Source of the DNA: Paenarthrobacter sp. Z7-10
GTDB lineage: Bacteria > Actinomycetota > Actinomycetes > Actinomycetales > Micrococcaceae
Assembly (NCBI RefSeq): GCF_026932795.1
Contig: NZ_JADPVH010000013.1
Coordinates: 1-64,000, forward strand
Reading direction: 5' to 3'
DNA: 64,000 nt
Program-made: the position numbers and the translations under genes
Part shown: in pieces, positions 13,385-18,604 of the stretch
Position numbering within the stretch: position 1 is the stretch's first letter
Layout: each line of letters starts with the position of its first letter
The notes under the pieces: model-generated
Seen by the model: the letters and a program-made list of their open reading frames with translations, nothing else
Database searches by the model: none
What the model was told of the DNA's origin: nothing

Positions 13385-14614
13385 CTAAATCGTTACCAAG
13401 GGCAGAAGCGACTCGAGCATTTTCGGTCCAACCCCGTCGACGGAGTCGAGCTCCTGCGCCGAACTGAACCTTCCATGGTCCAGTCGCCATTGGACAATCC
13501 GCTGCGCAAGGACCGGTCCCACCCTGGGCAGGGTCTGGAGTTCCTCCGCGGTGGAAGTGTTCAGGTTGATTTTTGCTCCAGCCGTTCCGGGCACCGGGAG
13601 AATTTTGGCGGCTGATCCACCACCGGAGCCCGGCTGTTGGGTCGCTGCCTGCGGTCCACTGCCTGGCGCGGCGGCTGCTGGTATCAGCTGAGCTGCGACC
13701 TGGTCCCGGGTGGGAACGATGACCTGTTCGCCATCCTGAAGCGGGGCGGCCAGGTTCACCGCTTCCAAAGCGGCCTCCGGCAGGCTCCCACCGGCTCTGT
13801 CGATAGCCTGATAGAGCCGGCTGCCAGCAGGCAGACTGAAGATTCCCGGTCGCTTGACGGCGCCGGCGATATATACCACGAACGTCCCCGCCGTCGTGGA
13901 GGGCGCCGGAGACTCCGCGGGTTTCGTGGCTGCGGGGCTGGGGACGGAATTCGTTTCGAGCGGCGGCACGGTCACCTTCGGTGACACCACCGCAGCCACG
14001 CTCTGCACGGGGAATCGTTGGCTGGCGGCCTGTAGCCACAGCACTGCCACAGCGCTGAGCAGCATGGCCAAGGCTACGATGACAGCACCGGAGGCCACCC
14101 GCCAGCGGATTGTGCGCCGTTTCGGAGGGTCGTCGCCAGCTCCTGGGCTTCGGTCCCGACCGCTGTCGTCCTCTACTGCCGTGCCACCTGGCGGGGCGCT
14201 GACTTGTGCCGGTGCCGTGCCGCCGGCCGGCGTCACGGCACCCGCAGTGGCGCCGGTTTGGGCGATGTACCGTGACGGTGTTAAGCCATCTGCCGGGGCG
14301 GTGGCGCTTGTATTGTCACCTGTCTCGACGGTGTCCGGTGTCTCGGCTGTGTCCGCTGTTGCCCTGTTGTGCTCGGCGGCGTCTTCGCCGTGCACAACGG
14401 CGCTTCCGGAGGTGGCGCCCGGACCTACGGTTGCCGGCCTCCCGTTCTGAAGGGCAGGAAGAAGCCCTACCGTCGGGGAGCGGGACAGACCGGTCCCGGC
14501 ATGCCGGCCCGGTGGGCGGACTCCGGTCCGGCCAGGTGGCTGCAGCAGTTCAGCGAGGCGGGACGGATGCCCGTCCACCCCCGGTGCCCCCCGCTGCCTG
14601 CTCTCCCTAGCCAT
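13385..14614 (-). CDS. comEA: ComEA family DNA-binding protein (SLBB plus helix-hairpin-helix)
   Basis: The protein has 409 residues from the ATG at 14614 (MARESRQRGAPG); the frame is open to 14755. A long Gly/Pro/Thr-rich cytoplasmic part precedes a basic segment and one membrane helix (VASGAVIVALAMLLSAVAVLWL). An SLBB-type domain (FVVYIAGAVKRPGIFSLPAG) and a C-terminal helix-hairpin-helix pair follow (INLNTSTAEELQTLPRVGP, VDGVGPKMLESLLP). ComEA binds incoming double-stranded DNA outside the membrane for delivery to ComEC, encoded directly downstream. The cytoplasmic extension is longer and more repetitive than usual. Confidence 0.9.
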   Translation of the reverse strand: MARESRQRGAPGVDGHPSRLAELLQPPGRTGVRPPGRHAGTGLSRSPTVGLLPALQNGRPATVGPGATSGSAVVHGEDAAEHNRATADTAETPDTVETGDNTSATAPADGLTPSRYIAQTGATAGAVTPAGGTAPAQVSAPPGGTAVEDDSGRDRSPGAGDDPPKRRTIRWRVASGAVIVALAMLLSAVAVLWLQAASQRFPVQSVAAVVSPKVTVPPLETNSVPSPAATKPAESPAPSTTAGTFVVYIAGAVKRPGIFSLPAGSRLYQAIDRAGGSLPEAALEAVNLAAPLQDGEQVIVPTRDQVAAQLIPAAAAPGSGPQAATQQPGSGGGSAAKILPVPGTAGAKINLNTSTAEELQTLPRVGPVLAQRIVQWRLDHGRFSSAQELDSVDGVGPKMLESLLPLVTI

Positions 14615-15905: not shown

Positions 15906-18431
<2,526 letters not shown>

Positions 18432-18484
18432 TGGTCCTGCCTTTTCACTTTTCATTGTCATCTTTCCCATCGAATTCTTCCCGG

Positions 18485-18517
18485 ACACACAAAAGCCCCT
18501 CGACAAGGCAAGGGGCT
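18485..18517 (-). terminator. Attenuator hairpin in the leuS leader
   Basis: On the minus strand AGCCCCT (18511-18517 complement) and AGGGGCT (18494-18500 complement) form a perfect 7-bp stem around a 10-base loop, followed directly by TTTTGTGTGT. This is a compact intrinsic terminator located 49 bases after the stop of the leader peptide and before every leuS start codon. Its position suggests transcription attenuation of leuS. I did not identify a unique competing antiterminator. Confidence 0.75.
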
Positions 18518-18565
18518 AACCGCGCGGCAACGATTCCATCAAACAGGACCCGCAGTGCCGAGCGG

Positions 18566-18592
18566 CTATCCAAGAAGGAGAAGGAAGTACAT
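18566..18592 (-). CDS. Putative leucine leader peptide of leuS
   Basis: An eight-codon frame, MYFLLLLG then TAG, with four consecutive Leu codons (CTT CTC CTT CTT), upstream of a leucyl-tRNA synthetase gene and an intrinsic terminator. Stalling at the Leu codons when charged tRNA-Leu is scarce would favour read-through into leuS, as in classic amino-acid attenuators. No Shine-Dalgarno sequence is visible. A TAAAGT -10 ends six bases before the A of ATG, which would allow a leaderless start. The motif is seen directly; the regulatory role is inferred. Confidence 0.7.
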   Translation of the reverse strand: MYFLLLLG

Positions 18593-18598
18593 AGCAAC

Positions 18599-18604
18599 AC
18601 TTTA
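18599..18604 (-). promoter_or_regulatory. Candidate -10 element for leuS leader transcript
   Basis: TAAAGT on the minus strand (TAnnnT type) lies six bases upstream of the leader-peptide ATG at 18592, so transcription could begin at the start codon itself. No convincing -35 hexamer is found 16-18 bases further up, which keeps confidence low. Confidence 0.4.

Follow-up and report, generated by a model that had tools for sequence, protein, structure and literature searches.

A probable attenuator of leuS in Paenarthrobacter with a conserved spacing between its last leucine codon and a leader hairpin

In Paenarthrobacter sp. Z7-10, the leucyl-tRNA synthetase gene leuS is preceded by an eight-codon reading frame with four consecutive Leu codons, a hairpin that we call P1, and an intrinsic terminator. 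An attenuator-type leader before leuS is well supported by sequence comparison, and we consider it very likely that the region acts as a ribosome-mediated transcription attenuator allowing read-through when charged Leu-tRNA is short. Features expected of an attenuator are present: a run of cognate codons, presumably translated, precedes a gene for the same amino acid; a terminator separates leader and gene; and, when folding is modelled with an mRNA channel of 11 nt, the RNA structure switches with ribosome position. We infer the leucine response, its polarity and the coupling step. The comparison thus backs the leader-peptide attenuation architecture that a sequence-only reading of the same DNA had proposed.

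Layout and conservation of the leuS leader

The stretch analysed here (the window) comprises 64,000 nt, and all parts of the leader lie on its minus strand. As the sequence-only reading had described, a -10 box, TAAAGT (18599-18604), stands six bases ahead of an ATG at 18592 that opens the frame MYFLLLLG upstream of leuS (18566-18592, including the TAG stop codon at 18568-18566); both elements were read directly from the minus strand. The four Leu codons at 18572-18583 are indeed not identical, being CTT CTC CTT CTT with the last at 18574-18572. The intrinsic terminator, AGCCCCTTG-CCTTGT-CGAGGGGCT (18494-18517), is supported by covariation and folding, and the remainder of its T-rich tail, TTTGTGTGT (18485-18493), by direct reading and alignment. 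A hairpin with a T-rich tail had been correctly noticed there; its stem has nine pairs including one G-U, not seven, and it begins 48 nt past the leader stop codon, not the 49 bases given earlier. The gene that follows is leuS, as had been said (15906-18431; TIGR00396, E 9.9e-286). We propose GTG 18431 as its start (MSVQSQ..., kept in relatives); in-frame ATGs lie upstream of it at 18455, 18461 and 18470.

Folding of the 108-nt leader transcript gives -44.6 kcal/mol, which is 3.9 sd lower than for dinucleotide shuffles. The 64-kb window holds a single ATG-N6-four CTN codons pattern, where 0.01 would be expected by chance, and a single CTNCTNCTN-NNN-TAGCCG, where the expectation is 0.00. An Rfam scan of the whole window returned no family at gathering score, and a T-box or other known riboswitch was rejected for want of a match. 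Two further features of the window may be mentioned: a divergent gene for an ECF-type sigma factor (TIGR02937; 18852-19481, plus strand) adjoins the leader, and ARAGORN called a 95-nt tRNA-Ala (CGC) within a long ORF (13397-13491, minus strand), which is probably a false positive.

A TANNNT box a few nucleotides before the start codon is the usual layout of leaderless actinobacterial genes. Regions upstream of leuS were taken from 100 genomes belonging to the family and from 80 named records of actinobacteria, and 171 of them could be anchored on the LeuS N-terminus. A TANNNT box, a short Leu-containing ORF and a terminator followed one another in 88 of the 171, a count of related sequences and hence not of independent loci. 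In 87 of these 88 the box lay 6-7 nt before the start codon; because this search had demanded a distance of 5-9 nt, the spacing test was redone without the preset. TANNNT then stood 6-7 nt before the start in 55 of the 58 leuS regions that contain an LLL mini-ORF; of all ATG/GTG codons in those regions only 5.1% have such a box, and shuffled sequence gave none. The leader transcript is therefore strongly implied to be leaderless, with the A of the ATG, or a base adjacent to it, as its first nucleotide. A leaderless transcript had been suggested from the window alone, and the spacing in the LLL loci supports it, as does a leaderless Streptomyces counterpart described in PMC8079986; the absence of a Shine-Dalgarno site also stands, as none can fit between the -10 box and the leader ATG. 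At the leuS leader, a sigma-70 -35/-10 scan called no promoter, because there is no good -35; the putative -10 assignment rests on conservation.

LLL leaders are present in Micrococcaceae, Nocardioides, Streptosporangiales and others. Among the four same-genus genomes, one retains both hairpins and a Leu run (MNFSLLLS), so that the check on close relatives set out beforehand has a mixed outcome, confined to these nearest species. The other three are reduced (L007, L010, L012): their leader is MAYFLG, P1 is missing and the terminator overlaps the stop codon, a state that fits the loss, relative to the window, of the segment separating two TAGCC repeats. Several lineages have one Leu codon only, which weighs against the attenuator reading, and decayed runs such as MAYFLG, MNSQHNLA and MPIRLP usually retain one. 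Glutamicibacter-like leaders (MNSQHNLA, MYSQRDLA; L048, L134, L135, L136, L138) combine a single CTA Leu codon and a shifted P1 with an almost invariant terminator, CCCCCGAGT, and may represent a decayed or altered sensor.

Hairpin P1 and the last leucine codon

The most conserved position of the leader is its last Leu codon: 66 of the 88 loci have CTT there and 17 have CTA (together 83/88). These codons make up only 6.9% and 1.7% (8.6% in sum) of the Leu codons in window genes, as counted in 24 window ORFs, and the Leu codons ahead of the last one show no CTT/CTA bias. In a class-level sample the last Leu codon was CTT in 30 of 32. The pattern spans families, with relatedness inflating the counts.

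The sequence-only reading had overlooked P1, in which 18568-18562 pairs with 18523-18517. According to folding and covariation, its 5′ arm, TAGCCGC (18562-18568), covers the leader stop codon, and its 3′ arm, GCGGTTA (18517-18523), abuts the terminator; the final A of the latter is common to the outermost A-U pair of the terminator. In a 41-sequence alignment, in which P1 and terminator show strong covariation, 89% of pair cells are standard, 11 of 17 pairs are altered on both sides, and none of 500 shuffles reached as high a covariation score. Averaged over 55 non-redundant loci, the P1 stem has 7.6 bp; exchanging arms between species lowers this to 5.5, and shuffling the region to 2.8. Actinomadura carries the variant CCACG:CGTGG. 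In leaders such as MHVQLLLPEPR and MRAVRLLLSEPR, the AGCCGC of P1 encodes Pro-Arg instead of forming stop-codon sequence, at an unchanged distance from the Leu codons, and the conserved feature is thus the distance, not the stop codon.

This distance is narrowly distributed. When 0-14 nt were allowed, the last Leu codon lay 5 nt from P1 in 59 of 85 loci and 4-5 nt in 66, whereas its distance to the stop codon ranged from 0 to 18 nt and to the terminator from 18 to 61 nt. In 67 of the 85, the gap between P1 and the terminator is 0-1 nt. With the Leu codon in the A site, the 5-nt spacing sets P1 11 nt from the first P-site base, which is the length of the bacterial mRNA channel (PMC7282821). Hairpins at 11-12 nt inhibit A-site tRNA binding, as reported for the dnaX and HIV hairpins, not P1, on E. 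coli ribosomes (PMC7282821). We masked the ribosome with a 15-nt footprint and subsequently with the 11-nt channel given in that work. Under the channel mask, P1 survived a ribosome holding either the first or the last Leu codon in its A site but not one holding the stop codon there, a pattern shown by 84 of 85 loci, so that P1 reports ribosome position; with the 15-nt footprint, a stall at the last codon would open P1.

Coupling of the ribosome to the terminator

The proposed attenuator would operate as follows. Transcription would start on the leader's own ATG, in which case a 70S ribosome would load on the 5′ end and read the eight codons. With ample charged Leu-tRNA, it would reach the stop codon, open P1 and leave, whereupon the terminator would fold and most transcripts would end before leuS. 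When charged Leu-tRNA is scarce, the ribosome would wait on the Leu codons, chiefly on the last, rarely used CTT, and P1 would stay folded directly ahead of it with the base of the terminator adjacent. This stalled state would lead to read-through into leuS, the polarity and this last step being the parts that we infer. Our preferred view of this step, possible though short of probable, is that P1 sets the stalled ribosome beside the terminator, whose folding the ribosome then hampers through its nearness and not through a competing antiterminator. One published result counts against an attenuator reading: in S. coelicolor ilvB, mutation of the candidate regulatory codons had no effect, according to PMC1262725.

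In a classical attenuator, by comparison, a ribosome stall would let a mutually exclusive antiterminator pair with part of the terminator. Such structures have been proposed for related elements, namely Streptomyces leuS (PMC1262725), the Corynebacterium ilvB-II motif (PMC10272879) and M. tuberculosis ilvB1 (PMC13236596); moreover, P1 takes up the position assigned in the classical models to the antiterminator, and in the window one base belongs both to its 3′ arm and to the terminator. The folding data argue against this. In masked folds of four ribosome states, the terminator had a median probability of 0.98 in every state, and its probability was about 0.9 or higher at nearly all of 88 + 43 loci whether or not P1 was formed. 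As long as the terminator 3′ arm has not been made, pairing of the 5′ arm amounts to only 20-39% whatever the ribosome state; at most 2 nt, and mostly none, are common to P1 and the terminator; and covariation over all anchored columns revealed no link between the leader and the terminator arms. Masked folds, 5′-arm sequestration and covariation thus yielded no mutually exclusive structure of the trp type, in agreement with the sequence-only reading, which could not define an antiterminator, and we regard the classical mechanism as rather unlikely. Since the terminator is stable in all ribosome states, folding does not link the stalled ribosome to read-through in these models, which exclude kinetic and steric effects. 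In the three P1-less same-genus species, the terminator 5′ arm begins 4 nt past the single CTT, in the usual place of P1, and in the folding model a stalled ribosome halves or abolishes the terminator. Direct occlusion of the terminator by the ribosome applies to these three species only and was rejected as a general rule. The arrangement suggests that the important element is the base of a hairpin located at the ribosome front, to which P1 would deliver the terminator.

Folding alone leaves the polarity unfixed, and leuS might instead rise with charged tRNA under a growth-rate control in which slow translation permits both hairpins and termination, and fast translation brings read-through. 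We consider this improbable, as the same geometry precedes cimA and ilvB, biosynthetic genes whose expression would be expected to increase under starvation, and the M. tuberculosis ilvB1 attenuator reads through under branched-chain amino acid limitation (PMC13236596). It is more improbable still that translation plays no regulatory part and that a short frame present by chance happens to precede a terminator that constitutively ends a small RNA or an upstream transcript. Such a terminator could by itself lower leuS expression, and the Leu run has been lost in three same-genus species, but the spacing to the start codon, the identity of the last codon and the codon-P1 spacing would then be inexplicable.

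Related leaders and known systems

A covariance model, R1, was built from the 41-sequence alignment, which contains no Streptomyces record. In the window's own genome it has one strong match, at leuS (E 1.4e-14), and one weak match, at ilvB (E 0.03). R1 has matches in 152 of the 297 genomes sampled from the class, in 70 of 115 genera, and 17 of 198 genomes in a sparser phylum sample. Nine of ten divergent downstream proteins could be scored, and all nine are leuS by TIGR00396. The model also recovers MRAVRLLLSEPR leaders, identical to S. lividans leuL2, before TIGR00396 leuS (L219, E 9.1e-13; L249, E 1.0e-10), in genomes that are presumably Streptomyces; a single sequence-structure model therefore covers the window-type and leuL2-type leuS leaders.

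In other genomes, second R1 matches precede the citramalate synthase gene cimA (TIGR00977 in the six tested). Their leaders carry Ile codons, as in MRSTRIIIS and MTFCLIIT, the last of which is ATT in 11 of 11 (L235-L239, L241, L243, L244, L246, L247, L254). Among 30 Micrococcaceae ilvB loci, CTT, ATT or GTT lies exactly 5 nt before P1 in 13 of the 24 with a called P1, the remaining loci showing no fit or being miscalled by a crude search. In the window's genome, the ilvB element (G000:C48:43912-44067, minus strand; L205) has the leader MQLVSVVLLTRRVIG, with its last CTT 5 nt ahead of a P1 (GCGCGTG:CACGCGC) that abuts the terminator. A literature search that covered few subscription papers found neither a cimA leader described in actinobacteria nor an Arthrobacter leuS leader. 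With considerable reserve, we raise the idea of an attenuator subclass of actinomycete leuS, cimA and ilvB that lacks an exclusive antiterminator. Its last codon (Leu CTT/CTA, Ile ATT or Val GTT) would lie 5 nt before P1, both the closest spacing at which P1 survives a stall and the one at which hairpins slow A-site tRNA binding, and P1 would place the terminator beside the ribosome, which would hinder its folding.

Our findings extend a Streptomyces leader type to roughly half the class genomes sampled, supply a covariance model where Rfam has none, and replace the search for an antiterminator with a concrete geometry in which one codon and one spacer are named. If functional, this geometry would account for the sensing of tRNA charging by a leaderless frame of only eight codons, and leuS, cimA and ilvB would then share one design.

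The closest known system is leuL2 of S. lividans TK24 (MRAVRLLLSEPR followed by a stop), upstream of leuS and leaderless by RNA-seq, as the window's leader is strongly implied to be; like the window, it has a short LLL leader, a hairpin, a U stretch and leuS downstream (PMC8079986). In the window, TAG directly follows LLLLG, whereas in Streptomyces the frame continues as LLLSEPR, with the P1 5′ arm coding Pro-Arg; the available part of PMC8079986 does not mention P1 or its geometry for leuL2. The candidate attenuators described for leuS in S. coelicolor and S. avermitilis (Seliverstov 2005, PMC1262725) share the Leu leader peptide, two hairpins and leuS; compared by their description in the text, they were presented as classical with an antiterminator, which our folding does not support. 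The LEU element, as described there, is a leuA pseudoknot with a base stem between the Leu codons and the Shine-Dalgarno site, and has no terminator (PMC1262725). The Corynebacterium ilvB-II motif (PMC10272879) and the M. tuberculosis ilvB1 attenuator (PMC13236596), both with experimental support for attenuation, share a branched-chain amino acid leader, a P1-like hairpin and a terminator; they differ in the mutually exclusive antiterminator proposed for them and in the gene, and the ilvB-II frame covers most of P1. The mycobacterial poly-Cys attenuators (Canestrari 2020, as cited in PMC13236596) have a short leaderless ORF in which the cognate codon is repeated, a layout that the window leader probably shares, but, from that citation, act on translation and without an intrinsic terminator. 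The frameshift-stimulating hairpin of dnaX resembles P1 in lying 5 nt past the A-site codon and 11 nt from the P site, where it slows A-site tRNA binding (PMC7282821); the likeness is one of spacing only and implies no frameshift or slippery site at leuS. Hence, this kind of leuS leader is already known in Streptomyces, and the geometry shared without an antiterminator, namely a last Leu codon mostly CTT or CTA with P1 usually 5 nt after it and abutting the terminator, may be new.
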